From assembly GCA_016234185.1 (NCBI GenBank), contig JACRHA010000035.1:1-39999 (forward strand): a stretch of DNA of 39,999 nucleotides. The letters are read 5' to 3'. This document shows, piece after piece, positions 4,086 through 28,297 of this stretch. How positions within the stretch are numbered: the first letter of the stretch is position 1; the number at the start of each line of letters is the position of its first letter. This stretch comes from Nitrospirota bacterium. GTDB lineage: Bacteria; Nitrospirota; Nitrospiria; JACRHA01. The notes beneath the pieces were generated by a model. That model worked only from the letters and a program-made list of their open reading frames with translations, was not told the origin of the DNA and did not search any database. Position numbers and translations under genes: made by a program.

Positions 4086-4262
4086 GGCTAGAAAATTAAC
4101 CCTGTAATGGATATATCTTCAAGGAATTACTTTGAATTTTAATGAAACGGAAGATCTGGCTAATTTTTTGTCCTAAAGGACAATAAATTGACCGTTTTGC
4201 AAAGCAGAATTAGGGGGTCTACCCGGATCTACATCCCGACCTTTTCCCTGTATTCGTCCATA
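4086..4262. repeat. Right copy of ~180-bp direct repeat
   Basis: Matches 668-857; its end includes the last ~10 codons of the 4229-4633 ORF. Confidence 0.9.
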
Positions 4263-4633: not shown

Positions 4634-5601
4634 TGACGTGTCTCCTTATTAAGAAATTGGTCAATAATCTTATCGGCTATTGAAATAAAGGATAATGATG
4701 CAGACGCATCAGGAAATTCAATAATAAATGGCAATCCCCTGTCAGCGGATCTGGACATCCTCGAATCGAAGGGGATCTCACCTATAACAGGTATGCCCAT
4801 GGTTCGACCAAGCTCACCACTGGTCTCCTTTGTAGACCCTTCTGGTTCGACCAAGCTCACCACAGGACTAAACAGCCCCGATTTATGCCCGCATTCAGGA
4901 CATATAAAGGATTTCATATTCTCAATCAGGCCAACGATCGGTATCTTAAGCTCTTTAACGGCGAAGGTGACAGATTTTCTTACAATATACTGTGACACCT
5001 CTGTCGGGATGGTTACCATGATGGCCCCATCCAGATCTGGAATAAGATTGGCAATAATAGGAGGTTTGTCACTTGATGCCGGAGGCATATCTATCAGGAG
5101 CAGGTCAAGATCGCCCCATACGACATCTGCCAGGAGCTCCCTGATCACCCCCATCTCCAATGCCCCTCTCCAGACTGCAGAGTCCTGCCATGTCCCCTTC
5201 CATGCTACCGGTGTGTCAGCACCTGCCAGCATCAGGTCCATGGAGGCGACTTTTATGCCAAGGTGGGAGACAGCAGGCATCGCCCCTTCAGGGGTGATAT
5301 TAATAGTTCTTCCGCCTACCCCGAGCATCTTGGGTATGGAAGGTCCGCTGATATCTGCATCCAGGATCCCGACCTTAAATCCCTTCTTTGCAAAGGCAAG
5401 CGCCAGGTTTATTGTCACCGAAGACTTACCAACGCCTCCCTTGCCGGACATCACGGCCATTTTGTGAGAGATCCGGCTGAGCCTTTTTCTGACCCTCTCT
5501 ATCTGATCGCCTACCTGGCCCAGGATATCCGTTACAGAAGCAGGGGCCGCCCCCCCGGACTCTAAATCCTTCACTATCTTGGAGATAACATCTTCATCCA
5601 T
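4630..5601 (-). CDS. mrp: Mrp/NBP35 family P-loop ATPase (Fe-S cluster carrier)
   Basis: MAVMSGKGGVGKSSVTINLALAFAKKGFKVGILDADISGPSIPKMLG; CPECG motif. Confidence 0.93.
   Translation of the reverse strand: MDEDVISKIVKDLESGGAAPASVTDILGQVGDQIERVRKRLSRISHKMAVMSGKGGVGKSSVTINLALAFAKKGFKVGILDADISGPSIPKMLGVGGRTINITPEGAMPAVSHLGIKVASMDLMLAGADTPVAWKGTWQDSAVWRGALEMGVIRELLADVVWGDLDLLLIDMPPASSDKPPIIANLIPDLDGAIMVTIPTEVSQYIVRKSVTFAVKELKIPIVGLIENMKSFICPECGHKSGLFSPVVSLVEPEGSTKETSGELGRTMGIPVIGEIPFDSRMSRSADRGLPFIIEFPDASASLSFISIADKIIDQFLNKETRQ
4801..4863. repeat. 20-bp perfect direct repeat (period 43 bp) inside mrp
   Basis: 'ggttcgaccaagctcaccac' at 4801-4820 and 4844-4863. Confidence 0.95.
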
Positions 5602-12458: not shown

Positions 12459-12840
12459 CTGTATGTTCCTAAAAAATAATATTTCGGTCAGATTAACTTA
12501 CAGCACGTGGATATTTCACGTCCTAACATATACTTTTAAGTCTATTCCATGAATGTATGGATTATATAGTAGGCTTATTATGGAGTCAAGTTTTGGAGGT
12601 ATTACAAGACAGCATCAATTTGTTTTATTTTTAATCCATCAGCTAATTAATGCATTATAAGTGTTATGCCTATTTTTTTGAAAGCATTTTGATGATATGC
12701 TTGGCAAGATTTTAGTTTATTTTGTTGTGTCTCGGAATAGGTTGAGAAATTTTAGTTCCTTGATTCTGATACCAATCGTGATTACCACCGTGCCTGATGA
12801 ATATACAACCCATCCCCTCTATTTAGATGGTTAGAAGATT

Positions 12841-22671: not shown

Positions 22672-22995
22672 TTAATCAACCAGCATCTCCTTTATGATCG
22701 ATTTTATCTCGTTAATGGTCTTACGATCAACCCTTCCAAGCCTCTTAATAAATCTTTTTTTATCAACCGTGCGGATCTGATCCAATACCACCCACCCATC
22801 CGTTCTCTTAAACTTGATAGGGATACGGGTAGGGTAGAGGTGCGATTGTGTTGTCATCGGTGCGATTATGACTGTTGAGATATATTTATTCATCTCATCA
22901 GGGGAGATAATAATGCAAGGACGTGCCTTTTTTATTTCGTGTCCGATAGTAGGATCAAGGGAAATAAGGAGGACATCATATTGTTTTATTACCAC
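22672..22995 (-). CDS. MazF/PemK-like toxin
   Basis: VIKQYDVLLISLDPTIGHEIKKARPCIIISPDEMN; VLDQIRTVDKKRFIKRLG. Confidence 0.9.
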   Translation of the reverse strand: MVIKQYDVLLISLDPTIGHEIKKARPCIIISPDEMNKYISTVIIAPMTTQSHLYPTRIPIKFKRTDGWVVLDQIRTVDKKRFIKRLGRVDRKTINEIKSIIKEMLVD

Positions 22996-23237
22996 TCCCA
23001 GCCTTTCATATCTAAATCAATTTGATCATCAATAATTAATCGATCTTCTTTCTCTTCCTCCATCTTTCTAAAATTGTCCTCCCAATCCTTTCTTGGTTCC
23101 TTTTTGAAGGGTTTGATAATTATGTTGTCATCTTCAACTTCCAGATCAACCTCCTTTTCAATGCGACATTGTTCTAAAATTATCTTGGGTATTCTTATTC
23201 CTTTAGAATTTCCGATCGGAACTATTGTTGCCTTCAT
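22989..23237 (-). CDS. MazE/AbrB-like antitoxin
   Basis: MKATIVPIGNSKGIRIPKIILEQCRI swapped-hairpin AbrB motif; overlaps toxin start. Confidence 0.88.
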   Translation of the reverse strand: MKATIVPIGNSKGIRIPKIILEQCRIEKEVDLEVEDDNIIIKPFKKEPRKDWEDNFRKMEEEKEDRLIIDDQIDLDMKGWEW

Positions 23238-23283
23238 ATTCTCCTCACCTCCAAAGTAATTATAATGTAATTACGTAGATGCG

Positions 23284-23468
23284 TCAAGAAAAGGTGGTAA
23301 TTAGGTATTCTATTGGATGAATTTCGGGATTTATATTGATGGATTTGATACCTGCATCAACTGCAAGAGAAAGTCATAACCTAACCCTGTCCTCTTATCT
23401 TCATGCCAGGAAAAGGCTGCCTTTAGATAATCTTCGGCTTCGGGCCTGAGAATGACTCTATATTTCAT
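23284..23468 (-). pseudogene. Frameshifted/truncated RelE/ParE-family toxin
   Basis: Reads MKYRVILRPEAEDYLKAAFSWHEDKRTGLGYDFLLQ then needs a frame change to VDAGIKSININPEIHPIEY...; in-frame stop at about codon 46. Confidence 0.75.
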
Positions 23469-23686
23469 TACCTGCCCAATATCCTTTTATAAACATCCTT
23501 CCATGGAGAGCCTAAATCAGGATTTCTATGATAAGCCTCCAATCGTTCATCAATTATTATTTTTTCATCTTCTGTTAATTCAATAGCCTCAGCTTCTGTG
23601 GCTATTGTATCCCAAATATCTTCTACCAGTTGGATCCTCTCAGGTATGGACAATGCAATAGTATCTGTTGCTGTTATTTTCTTCAT
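23468..23686 (-). CDS. Addiction-module antitoxin (TIGR02574-like)
   Basis: MKKITATDTIALSIPERIQLVEDIWDTIATEAEAIELTEDEKIIIDERLEAYHRNPDLGSPWKDV; TAATG overlap with decayed toxin. Confidence 0.87.
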   Translation of the reverse strand: MKKITATDTIALSIPERIQLVEDIWDTIATEAEAIELTEDEKIIIDERLEAYHRNPDLGSPWKDVYKRILGR

Positions 23687-23767
23687 GGTTATATCCCCCT
23701 TGCTTTGTCTGTTTTGCATCTGCTATCTATTTTAGCAAAAATTTGAAAATCTTTCATGCACAGCGAT

Positions 23768-23814
23768 GCCGTTGAACGCCCAGGTTCAGCGGCCGCTTGA
23801 ACCTGTTGTTGGGC
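23768..23814 (-). other. attC-like recombination site at 3' end of an apparent integron cassette
   Basis: Minus strand: GCCCAAC AA CAGGTTCA A GCGGCCGC TGAACCTG GGC GTTCAAC; R''-type GCCCAAC, near-perfect hairpin with one extrahelical A, 2 nt after a stop codon. Confidence 0.6.
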
Positions 23815-24386
23815 ATCACTTCTGCGCAGGCGAGGGCGGTGGGGGCGGCGCGGGTGGGACGGCAAGTGATGAGTGCCAGTGGGTCCACTTCCAGCCGTCA
23901 TCGCCTTTGTGCAGCACCACCGAATTGCGCGACGGCTGCGACATTGTGTTTCCATCCGCCATCTTCGCAATGAAGTCGAACTCGACTGTGCAATAGGCCA
24001 GCGTCTGGGTCGCACGGCAACTACTCGAGTGGATGTCGAGCTTCAGGCTCGCGCCCATCTTCTTCACCTCCGCAAATGTTGCCTCGACCCAGCGGACAAC
24101 CTCGTCGCGCGACCCGAAACGTACTGGCTTGTTCTCCATGTCCATCTCGAAGGAGACGACGTCCTCGGTGAGGCCTGCCTTGAAGCGCTCCACGTCCATT
24201 GCCACGAATGCGCCCATCGTCCCTTCCACCTGCGTGCGCACTTCCTGCGCTACGGCATCGTTCCACTGCACCTTGGTCGGCGCCTGTGGCGCGGGCGTGC
24301 ATCCGAGTGCGCCGAGCACCGGCAGGAGAAAGGTTATTCGTATCCAGTTCATTTGTTGCCTCCCGTTGGTTTGTGTTGTTGCCTAA
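23777..24386 (-). mobile_element. Probable orphan integron gene cassette (~610 bp)
   Basis: 5' boundary G^TTAGGC (revcomp of gcctaac, 24381-24387), one GC-rich ORF filling the unit, attC-like hairpin at the 3' end. Confidence 0.55.
23816..24352 (-). CDS. Lipoprotein with SnoaL/DUF4440-like (NTF2-fold) domain, cassette-encoded
   Basis: Lipobox VLGALGC; VEGTMGAFVAMDVERFKAGLTEDVVSFEMDMENKPVRFGSRDEVVRWVEATFAEVKK; GWKWTHWHSS. Confidence 0.75.
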   Translation of the reverse strand: MNWIRITFLLPVLGALGCTPAPQAPTKVQWNDAVAQEVRTQVEGTMGAFVAMDVERFKAGLTEDVVSFEMDMENKPVRFGSRDEVVRWVEATFAEVKKMGASLKLDIHSSSCRATQTLAYCTVEFDFIAKMADGNTMSQPSRNSVVLHKGDDGWKWTHWHSSLAVPPAPPPPPSPAQK

Positions 24387-24689
24387 CATTTATTTTAAAA
24401 CTTATTCTGTCAATGTATGAATATTATATTCGACCCATCAGGTTGTCAAGTTTTTTTCTTGAAAACCTGATGGAAATAGGTCAAATCAATCGGCATAATA
24501 ATCTGAAATTTATTATTATAATGAATCGGGATAATTTATAACTTAATTATTATTTTCGGGGACACCATACCTAATCCGGCCCTTCTCGAATTAAATTTCA
24601 TGTATAGTTGTTTTGCAACTTTTAGGAGTACTTTCTGGTTGCCATAATAGACACTTGACGCGCAATCTAAATCGGAGTATATTTGTAAT

Positions 24690-24920
24690 ATGAAAGTAAA
24701 GACATCTATCACACTTTCAGAAGACCTACTGGATGCTATCGATGAAAGGTCAGGCCAGTTTAAGAATCGTTCTGATTTCGTTGAGGCCGCCATTCGCGCC
24801 TATATTGAGCATATGATCCGGGAGGAGCAGAACGCCAAAGACCTTGCTATTATTAACCGGCAAGCCGATCGGCTCAATAAAGAAGCCATAGATGTATTGG
24901 AATATCAGCTGATTCCGTGA
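24690..24920 (+). CDS. CopG/RHH antitoxin
   Basis: [41 protein letters not shown]. Confidence 0.88.
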
Positions 24921-25246
24921 AACGCGGGGAAATCTATCGCGTTGTCCATCCCTCAGCCAGAGACCCCCGGAAACATCGGTTTTTTGTAGTTGTCAGTCGC
25001 CAGGTTCTTATTGATTCGCGCTTCTCAACAGCCATCTGTGCCCCTGTCTATTCTACACATGATGCTTTGTCCACTCAGGTTTTGATTGGTGTCGAAGAGG
25101 GTCTTAAACACGACAGCAGCATTCACTGTGATGAATTAGTTAGCTTGCCGAAATCAGCCCTTACGAATTATGTTGGAACGCTTTCTTCCACGAAAACCAA
25201 AGAACTGAACCGTGCCTTAGGTATTGCATTGGATATTTTTGAATAG
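24917..25246 (+). CDS. MazF/PemK-family toxin
   Basis: [33 protein letters not shown]...[35 protein letters not shown]-type overlap with antitoxin. Confidence 0.87.
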
Positions 25247-25367
25247 CAATTGGGATTAGGCTTTTCCTTCGACATTTTAATCTGCGTAACCAATGTAGTC
25301 ATCTGGAGTGATAGCCTTAAGATCAAATCCTACAAGACGACCTTCTGTTCTGTTTTAGGAGGAGTAA

Positions 25368-26381
25368 TCATCTCTCTGCCATGAACCGCAGAATCCTCTC
25401 ATTGATATACGCCAGCATCTTCCTTGTCGGTATATGAGGCCCATCGAGAATCTCGATTGCTGTAAGATTAGGGATGATCTCCTTCGACCAGATATAGGCC
25501 TGATCAAATGGGACAAAGATATCCTCCTTTGCCAGAAACAGGAGCGATGGTGCGGCAAAGCGCTTAAGGTTCTCAATTGAAAAAGGACCCGGCGGTATCT
25601 GAATCCAATTGACATGGCGGATTATTGTATCAAAGAATTCCAGAACAGGTTCTTCAAATTCGCTCATAAGGGGACGGAGGACACGAATCAGTCTATTGCG
25701 GCTGGGTATCAATCTATATAGTGACCATGGGATAAAGAGATGAAGAAGCAAGTGGGGTGATGATGCGCTTGCAATACCTGCAGGCACGATCAGGGCACCC
25801 CTGGAGATCCGCTCCGGGGCATAGGCTGCCAGATCCAGGAGGATGCCTCCGCCAAATGAGATGCCTGTAAAAGCAGCGCGCTCTAGCCCGAGGTCATCAA
25901 GGATATCCACTAACCATTTTGCATAGTTGTTGCCTAGTGGAGAGATGAGTGTCTTTGCGCTCCGGCCCGGCTGACCGATGATATCGGGTAAGTAGATTCT
26001 GTAATTCCTCGTGAGAGGTAATAGTACCTCAAGGCCAAAAGGCCCGCTGGCATGAATCCCATGTAAGGCTACAAGTGGTGGTGCATTCGCCGGCCCGGCA
26101 ATCAATATATGAGTTGGACCAAAACGGGTATCCAACATCCGGCTCTCACATTTGATGCCGATACGGGAAAGCCGGGCCAGACGGCTCTCATATAGCTCCA
26201 TGAATTTGGCTTCACCCTCTGGGCTCTTGTAAATCAAGGATTTCACGCTATTGTCGGCTATAATGAATTGCGATTTCTGGCCGGGTCTGGAGGCCTGGCG
26301 AGTTAAAAGGCAGGATACCTTTATCCAGCATACCTTGTAACGGCGATTGTCTTCCAGAACCATCTTTAGCGGCAGTAACAA
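25368..26381 (-). CDS. Alpha/beta hydrolase
   Basis: PPLVALHGIHASG, nucleophile elbow FTGISFGGG, acid region LAKEDIFVPF, His in DGPHIPT; start uncertain. Confidence 0.85.
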   Translation of the reverse strand: MLLPLKMVLEDNRRYKVCWIKVSCLLTRQASRPGQKSQFIIADNSVKSLIYKSPEGEAKFMELYESRLARLSRIGIKCESRMLDTRFGPTHILIAGPANAPPLVALHGIHASGPFGLEVLLPLTRNYRIYLPDIIGQPGRSAKTLISPLGNNYAKWLVDILDDLGLERAAFTGISFGGGILLDLAAYAPERISRGALIVPAGIASASSPHLLLHLFIPWSLYRLIPSRNRLIRVLRPLMSEFEEPVLEFFDTIIRHVNWIQIPPGPFSIENLKRFAAPSLLFLAKEDIFVPFDQAYIWSKEIIPNLTAIEILDGPHIPTRKMLAYINERILRFMAER

Positions 26382-26461
26382 TTTCCATTGTGCTACCTTC
26401 TCTAAAAAGGGAAATTAGATTGGACAGGCCATCATGACACCTTTTCAAGCTTTAGTTCTAC

Positions 26462-26887
26462 CTATCCTTTATGTTCCTCAATAATCTTGAGAAGATTTAC
26501 ATAGAAGTCCTTTATATCAGCCAGTTCATTGACCAGGATATCATAAAGCGTCTTTTTATCGATATGGTTATATAGATGGACTATCCTGTTCCTGAACTTA
26601 GACATATCAGTGTATGTCACAATTTTCCCTTCCGGGATGTAACCGGCGTCAGAAAGTATCTTGATAATCTCCGCATTTGAATTAGGTGTTTTAAGTCCGA
26701 GTGAGGCGATAATATAACTGCATATATCAAGTAATGCCTGTATTGATGTCTGGAGTCTATAAAGGGCAGAATCAATGTTTCTGTAATCGAAGATAAAATC
26801 TTCGTATGGCATACTCTTTAGAGGATATAACTTCTCAAGGTTATCGAGTATAACATCAATCTTTGTCTGGATATCCTCTTTTCTCAT
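26462..26887 (-). CDS. HepT-like HEPN toxin (DUF86)
   Basis: FRNRIVHLYNHID contains the RX4HXY HEPN RNase motif; paired with MNT-type nucleotidyltransferase. Confidence 0.9.
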   Translation of the reverse strand: MRKEDIQTKIDVILDNLEKLYPLKSMPYEDFIFDYRNIDSALYRLQTSIQALLDICSYIIASLGLKTPNSNAEIIKILSDAGYIPEGKIVTYTDMSKFRNRIVHLYNHIDKKTLYDILVNELADIKDFYVNLLKIIEEHKG

Positions 26888-27324
26888 AATCTCGCAAGTC
26901 TCCTCTTATACCCCTCAAAATAGAAGTTATTCATAAATCTAAGGGTCGGTTCAAAATCACAGTAATCAGAGATAACCTTAGTAACAAATCTTATTCTGAA
27001 GTCAGGGGCAGCATCATAAATCAACTTGCCGGTTCTAAGGACATTATGTACAAAAATAAGCCCCTGATTATTAAGTTCTATCAAATCTACCTCTTTTGCC
27101 TGCAATGTCTCTTCAATCCTGTATGCCAGATAATCCATTTTGTGTATCAGTTCCCTCCCTTTCGGGGCATTATCTTTTAGGAGGATCGCAATGTCCAGAT
27201 CGCTCATAGGGCTAACCTTTCCTGAGGCATGGGAGCCGAAGAGATAGGCAGAAGCTATATAGGGATAGTCCTTAAATATCTCCTTTAGTTTTTCTAGATT
27301 AGTTATGGATATTTGCTGTCCCAT
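26884..27324 (-). CDS. MntA-like minimal nucleotidyltransferase antitoxin
   Basis: YLFGSHASGKVSPMSDLDIAILL: GSX10DXD motif. Confidence 0.9.
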   Translation of the reverse strand: MGQQISITNLEKLKEIFKDYPYIASAYLFGSHASGKVSPMSDLDIAILLKDNAPKGRELIHKMDYLAYRIEETLQAKEVDLIELNNQGLIFVHNVLRTGKLIYDAAPDFRIRFVTKVISDYCDFEPTLRFMNNFYFEGYKRRLARL

Positions 27325-27388
27325 ATATTATCTCCCCGTCCAGACCGATGTCCTTCGGCCCCATTAATAAATAACGTGGATTGAATTA

Positions 27389-27673
27389 TTAAGCCCTCTT
27401 TTTCTCTGTTAAATAGCCTGATACGTATTTGTGGATGATACTGGATATCAGCGTCTGGTAAGGAATGCCCTCTTGAGCCGCAATAACCTGTACCTGATCT
27501 AAATCCTTTGATGACATCCGAATATTTATTCTCTTATCTTTTTGAAGTGTATTCCTTGCATATTCACGGAGTTTTCTTATTTCCTGTTTTGGATTCTTGA
27601 CAGGTCTCCATTCACCACGCTCGTACGACTCTAAAATATCTTTTTCTTCATCATCTAAAATCATCTTTTTCAT
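27389..27673 (-). CDS. CopG/BrnA-like antitoxin
   Basis: RINIRMSSKDLDQVQVIAAQEGIPYQTLISSIIHKYVSG RHH; directly follows BrnT-like gene with overlap. Confidence 0.8.
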   Translation of the reverse strand: MKKMILDDEEKDILESYERGEWRPVKNPKQEIRKLREYARNTLQKDKRINIRMSSKDLDQVQVIAAQEGIPYQTLISSIIHKYVSGYLTEKKRA

Positions 27674-27948
27674 TCTTCAGCCCTCACATATTTGTTTGTA
27701 GCTTTTCTGCTGGGAATAATGGTCTTTAAGAATATAGCTTCACTTTCCTGTACATAAGGAACAAGATATGCGTAATCATCAATCCTGACTATCGCAATTT
27801 TCTGGCCAGGATACTTATCTTGATTTGGATGTTCAATTGTTTCAAGAACATCTTCTCGTTCCATCAAGATAACAACCTGTTCAAAACTAACTCCTCTGTT
27901 TGTCTTCAACCATTCATTTTTTCCATTATCCCACCGAAAAACCTTCAC
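27670..27948 (-). CDS. BrnT-like toxin
   Basis: FRWDNGKNEWLKTNRGVSFEQVVILME; IIPSRKATNKY. Confidence 0.75.
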   Translation of the reverse strand: MKVFRWDNGKNEWLKTNRGVSFEQVVILMEREDVLETIEHPNQDKYPGQKIAIVRIDDYAYLVPYVQESEAIFLKTIIPSRKATNKYVRAEE

Positions 27949-27958
27949 AATATATTAT

Positions 27959-28297
27959 CTACGACATTGTCTGCCTTTTGTCAATGTTATTATTTTGGAA
28001 TAACGAGTTGCGGCTAACCGGCGCGGCGAAGCCGCGTCCATGTTGACCCTTATAAGGGTTAGGTTTCTTCACAAAGCTCCCACGATACTGGATGGGTACC
28101 GGACATGATTTAATTACATAGCCATGCTTCTCCGCCCATTCCTTTGCTGTGTTAGCAAACTGTGGCTGGCCACCATTGAGATAAGCCTCTGCCATGGTCT
28201 TGTTGCCTTTTGTGTTAAGCTTTTCAATGAGTACAGGAATAATTTCTTCTTTCCCAGCACCTATAAAGGCATATAGGAATATATCCTCTCCTGTCAC
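27959..28297 (-). CDS. Short ORF, possibly a C-terminal fragment of a HEAT-repeat type protein
   Basis: EEIIPVLIEKLNTKGNKTMAEAYLNGGQPQFANTAKEWAEKHGY reads as protein-like; no RBS seen, may be a remnant. Confidence 0.35.
   Translation of the reverse strand: MTGEDIFLYAFIGAGKEEIIPVLIEKLNTKGNKTMAEAYLNGGQPQFANTAKEWAEKHGYVIKSCPVPIQYRGSFVKKPNPYKGQHGRGFAAPVSRNSLFQNNNIDKRQTMS

Follow-up and report, generated by a model that had tools for sequence, protein, structure and literature searches.

An integron gene cassette outside an array, next to a repeated promoter module, in a Nitrospirota genome

The DNA analyzed here (hereafter, the window) is a stretch of 39,999 nucleotides representing one contig of a Nitrospirota assembly (1.98 Mb, 184 contigs, about 86% complete). 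The minus-strand segment from 24386 to 23777 is, nearly certainly, an integron gene cassette of 610 bp, bounded by two G^TT cut points (^ marks the cut). There is good support for the insertion of one cassette outside an array, the mismatch at its right end having come from the recipient. The cassette directly follows the end of a promoter module that recurs in the genome, and the explanation we favor, with moderate confidence, is insertion by an integron integrase (IntI) acting in trans at a dispersed platform that combines a promoter with an attI-like site.

Cassette boundaries and the cassette gene

In IntI-mediated recombination, the bottom strand of attC, in folded form, is joined to double-stranded attI at G^TT, and precise G^TT junctions are expected at secondary sites. 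On the minus strand of the window, the left core, G^TTAGGC (24381-24387), consists of a first G belonging to the recipient and TTAGGC belonging to the cassette; in the present right core, G^TTCAAC (23771-23777), the last six bases are those of the recipient site. Between the two cuts lie the core start, a 34-bp leader, one open reading frame (ORF; 23816-24352) and the attC site. Read-out of the sequence placed all these elements where the first-pass annotation had put them, except that the R'' box follows the stop codon after a single nucleotide, rather than the reported two. The AT-rich surroundings described in that annotation are real as well: GC content is 0.611 inside the cassette and 0.375 and 0.402 in the flanking kilobases (61% against 38-40%). 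The maximum-likelihood breaks in composition, at 23749-23780 and 24314-24369, adjoin the predicted cuts, the second one falling slightly inside the cassette because the leader is less GC-rich.

The cassette ORF encodes a 178-aa protein in which a signal/lipobox-like N-terminal stretch (MNWIRITFLLPVLGALGC) is followed by a SnoaL_3/DUF4440 domain of the NTF2-like fold family (Pfam matches: SnoaL_3, 9.2e-13; DUF4440, 1e-5). Judging from the N-terminal stretch, the product is probably lipid-anchored, that is, a lipoprotein. Within the phylum, the ORF has matches at only about 30% identity; no homolog was detected in the plasmids, viral contigs or genome contigs searched, and the proposed search of integron arrays likewise returned no close homolog in any array or plasmid. 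This isolation of the ORF would fit the alternative that the segment is not a cassette at all, but a GC-rich gene of foreign origin with a hairpin or terminator that follows it by chance. The composition shift at the boundaries speaks against that alternative, which we consider very improbable.

Fold, geometry and scores of the attC site

The cassette attC (23777-23814, minus strand) comprises the R'' box GCCCAAC at 23814-23808, the TTCAAGCGG/CCGCTGAAC hairpin and a GCG end before the cut; at 44 nt, it is unusually short and almost devoid of a variable loop. With the ends joined as in a circle, the junction would read GGGCG^TTAGGC, and R'' GCCCAAC pairs with R' GTTAGGC at six of the seven positions, the 5' core being complementary to the cassette's own R''. 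In this joined form, the bottom strand of attC, which is the strand recombined by IntI, forms a single hairpin (-11.6 kcal/mol, z -2.9) whose L stem has one bulge, A on the top strand and T on the bottom strand. Folding thus bears out the earlier claim of 6-of-7 pairing around a hairpin with one extrahelical A. The right end as it now stands, GTTCAAC, abolishes the R pairing, and the fold weakens to -8.8 kcal/mol. Joining the ends restores this pairing and raises the pair log-odds, calculated on the same alignment, by about 10 bits over the site in place, so that the recipient origin of the right-end mismatch, suggested at first pass, now has good support.

The R''-L'' and L'-R' spacers are 6 nt each and, together with the L'' and L' boxes (TTCAAGCGG and CCGCTGAAC), fit the geometry of real attC sites, such as those of aadA1, aadA2 and aadA5; L boxes and 6-nt spacers also agree with the class 1 and phylum attCs gathered here. 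Unlike those of classic attCs, the hairpin has a central spacer that is paired for the most part, a feature that would again favor a chance hairpin or terminator, but the exact L/R spacing and the complementarity of the 5' core to R'' count against one, as does the score of the site with attC models.

A simple attC motif finder produced many false matches and was dropped in favor of two covariance models, R1, built from 12 outside attCs, and R2, built from 37 attC matches, none of them from the window. Scored in place, with the foreign last box of the recipient, the cassette attC ranked first in the window under both R1 (14.3 bits, next site 9.8; E = 0.22) and R2 (22.8 bits, next site 15.1; E = 0.0022 per 40 kb and 0.107 genome-wide), the E-values being rough because the model calibrations were short. 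The covariance search called for by the first-pass annotation therefore places the site above background. Rfam scans found nothing. One credible attC was counted in the 40-kb window; single-attC matches can be true positives (PMC9024848).

Integrase and other attC sites of the genome

The statement that no integrase is in view holds for the window contig and fails for the genome, the only IntI of which is encoded on contig C28 (positions 2-670); the suggested search for intI elsewhere was thus successful, yielding a gene cut by the contig edge. The C28 gene matches TIGR02249 with 324 bits (cut-off 265) and contains no stops, the IntI-specific insert and the HxxR...H...Y motifs are readable, and its best plasmid matches are 57% identical. 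The window cassette is, therefore, not without a possible enzyme. With IntI on C28 alone, the layout of a complete integron (intI beside attI and cassettes) is not seen around the window cassette. The contig edge cuts off both the 5' start of intI and the attI that belongs to it. Integrons are common in the phylum sample, in which an IntI match passes the strict limit in 73 of the 296 genomes and the curated cut-off in 67; of the 40 genomes searched as relatives, the one analyzed here included, 32 have attC matches.

About a dozen further attC-like sites were detected with R2 on other contigs of this genome. Those on C20, C131, C70, C28, C27 and C94 are strong (40-52 bits, all six being among the 37 training matches), and those on C38, C29, C140, C5, C75 and C91 are weaker, none of these being in the training set. 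The co-occurrence of IntI and many attCs in one genome is another argument against a foreign gene with a chance hairpin. Some of the sites are located at contig ends and probably represent broken arrays; others belong to lone cassettes in the interior of contigs. The C29 cassette closely resembles that in the window, with a left core TAACTGG^TTAGGC, R'' GCCTAAC (7/7 when joined) and a right core G^TTCTCC from the recipient.

Several other features of these contigs were recorded. A lone cassette on the minus strand of C28 (attC 4835-4898, 47.3 bits; ORF 4893-5564), some 4 kb away from the 3' end of intI, has an R'' box, CCCTAAC, that matches the 5'-end TTAGGG, and its left neighbor base is A, not G. 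The same near-palindrome, GCGTTCTCCCTTCGCTCYGCTCANGGAGAACGC, follows two different attCs, on C29 (2362) and on the minus strand of C20 (2457), and is either a recipient that is itself repeated or a repeat that travels with the cassettes. C27 and C91 start with an identical 141-bp sequence (1-141 in both) that contains an attC-like site; this repeated attC is probably what interrupted the assembly.

A repeated promoter module at the recipient site

The joined cassette flanks (reconstructed empty-site junction, AAATAAATG^TTCAACGGC) were used to search the same genome for a paralogous empty site. This search, together with a profile, delineated a module of about 100 bp (24387-24490, minus strand; 104 bp in the window) that ends exactly at the cassette boundary. 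The module consists of a TTGACA-17-TATAAT-type promoter and a 'GAATAAGTNTNAAAATAAATG^TT' end, the sequence before the cut being AAATAAATG^TT. In the window, the sigma-70-like promoter TTGACA-17-TAATAT (24421-24449, minus strand), identified by consensus match only and conserved in other copies, points into the cassette, with the -10 element about 34 bp before the cut. An inverted repeat, CCATCAGGTT...AACCTGATGG (about 24436-24474, minus strand), overlaps the -35 element and could be a possible operator.

Other copies are present at C62:2234-2336, C8:5435-5520 and C149:5252-5339. The C62 match (2225-2336) is 88% identical over 113 bp, its final base being the one that immediately precedes the cut; on C8, identity is 73% and the match stops no more than two bases from the cut point; and the C149 match covers 29 nt across the junction at 90%, reading GAATAAGTATAAAAATAAATG^TTGAACG where the reconstructed empty window site reads GAATAAGTTTTAAAATAAATG^TTCAACG. 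Identity to the window copy is 70-88% on the left side of the cut, with TTGACA-17-TATAAT-type hexamers within the conserved part; on the right side, it is near background. The module profile (A3/R3) recovers the four copies at 54-82 bits, but was made from these same copies, so that only the pairwise joined-flank match is independent; it also detects partial copies at C165:7430-7478 and at 12529-12598 of the window. The genes behind the cut are different in each case: SnoaL-like in the window, an unnamed 151-aa ORF on C62, DUF4160 and DUF2442 on C8, and DUF2283 on C149. An attC is recognizable in only two of the four copies, the well-scored one in the window and a weak one on C62, where a degenerate attC-like hairpin (14.1 bits) lies 9 nt after the stop; C62 has G^GTAGAA in place of G^TT and has lost the R'' box. 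The C8 and C149 copies have no scorable attC.

The same structure bears on the possibility that IntI put a genuine cassette, as a one-off, into a chance secondary (attG-type) G^TT site behind a promoter repeated in the genome. Secondary sites need little beyond GNT, a GNT/GTT triplet being sufficient (PMC10127599), and G^TTCAAC is present in the window; genome-wide attG insertion has been reported in Escherichia coli, as cited in PMC12444791 and PMC12901181; and the other lone cassettes of the genome do not lie beside the module. However, all four copies of the repeat break off at one and the same point, with a different gene behind each, which argues for something more specific, and we regard a one-off insertion as rather unlikely. 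The attI-like platform is preferred because, elsewhere in the genome, other genes occupy this position on the module. By the same token, the first-pass interpretation, insertion of a single cassette at a secondary site, stands as to the single cassette outside an array, but the recipient is not simply a chance site, its left side being a copy of a promoter repeat.

Several attC sites, on C28, C70 and C20, lack the module, which counts against the platform. A second family, on C29 and C94, shares about 250 bp unrelated to the module and ending within the core at AATAACTGG^TTAG before attC-bearing cassettes. One platform for all lone cassettes was rejected, as C28, C70 and C20 show neither module family. 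Furthermore, the module may be simply a repeated promoter, since the partial copies on C165 and in the window precede ordinary genes. The partial window copy (12529-12598, minus strand) is divergent, reads ATATG^TTAGGA and precedes an MFS-like transporter gene after which there is no attC. On C62, a tRNA 3'-end-like fragment, possibly an old integration scar, lies just before the module, at about 1950-2000.

The module was absent from 269 other genomes of the class, from plasmids and, as an exact pattern, from viral contigs. The proposed search for an empty site in relatives, none of them close, found no orthologous one, the downstream flank giving only short or diverged matches. The 18-base empty-site string has 12 matches, in unrelated organisms, about the chance expectation in 257 Gb.

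Genomic neighborhood

Just downstream of the insertion lies a gene with a domain match to the Unstab_antitox family of antitoxins (23468-23686, minus strand), presumably the former neighbor of the promoter. Upstream of the module is a divergent RHH/PemK toxin-antitoxin pair (24690-25246, plus strand; domain match). These genes belong to a run of toxin-antitoxin-like genes around the cassette (22672-28297) that also includes a MazE-like/PemK pair (22672-23237) and, further on, nucleotidyltransferase/HEPN- and BrnT/BrnA-like pairs, recognized by look only. Elsewhere in the window, 668-856 and 4086-4261 form a direct duplication of 189 bp with 86% identity.

This neighborhood is relevant to the idea that the locus is the relic of a former integron, a single-site CALIN in which the module is the old attI and promoter and the integrase and other cassettes were lost. 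Promoter, attI-like site and cassette do reproduce the layout of an integron without intI, and decayed attC-like sites are common in the genome. Yet toxin-antitoxin and other ordinary genes adjoin directly, there is no integrase remnant near any module copy, and four loci with the same module would need repeated duplication and loss; we deem such an origin improbable.

Discussion

In the proposed mechanism, a free circular cassette carrying a gene for a SnoaL-like, probably lipid-anchored protein would be inserted by IntI, the folded attC bottom strand recombining with a G^TT target in double-stranded DNA, at the end of the promoter module of about 100 bp. The module would be recognized by IntI as a site and would function as an attI-like expression platform: with a strong-promoter -10 element some 34 bp ahead of the cut, a cassette gene that has no promoter would be transcribed as soon as it was inserted, provided that the predicted promoter is active. 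Since copies of the module stand at several places, with a different gene following the cut each time, a single IntI from a gene on another contig appears to act in trans on a number of scattered platforms. The more general proposition, that paralogous promoter-attI platforms without an adjacent integrase, each holding one cassette, are loaded in trans by a single IntI and constitute distributed loading sites as opposed to one array, is tentative.

Each of the known systems shares some traits with this locus. The secondary-site cassettes of Recchia & Hall 1995 and Segal & Elisha 1997, as cited in PMC10127599, are single cassettes outside an integron, like that in the window; compared with these cases as cited, the window cassette is on a chromosomal contig and has, on its left, not a unique site but a repeated promoter module. 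attG insertion, documented at numerous scattered loci (Loot et al. 2024, as cited in PMC11023631, PMC12444791 and PMC12901181), likewise places cassettes outside attI and attC with IntI elsewhere in the genome. Going by these citations, attG sites are spread over numerous loci, whereas in the window one defined repeat would be used or reused. The CALIN (IntegronFinder 2.0, PMC9024848; Xanthomonas, PMC12444791) are similar in having attC without a neighboring integrase and intI elsewhere, but comprise at least two clustered attCs by default; the window has a single attC in 40 kb and a linked repeated promoter. With the attI and Pc promoter of an integron, the module shares a predicted strong promoter, an AT-rich half-site and a G^TT where different genes start. 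It differs in its several dispersed copies, with one cassette-like unit per copy, and in lacking an adjacent intI; for the latter reason, and with IntI binding only putative, the module is not filed as attI.

The sequence AAATAAATG^TT behind TTGACA-17-TATAAT is a concrete, testable prediction of the platform. The findings suggest that surveys requiring two attC sites or a neighboring intI miss real integron cargo. Cassettes at scattered attG sites are already known, and their expression there depends on luck; if the platform interpretation is true, some bacteria would maintain, away from the integron, several positions prepared in advance for expression.
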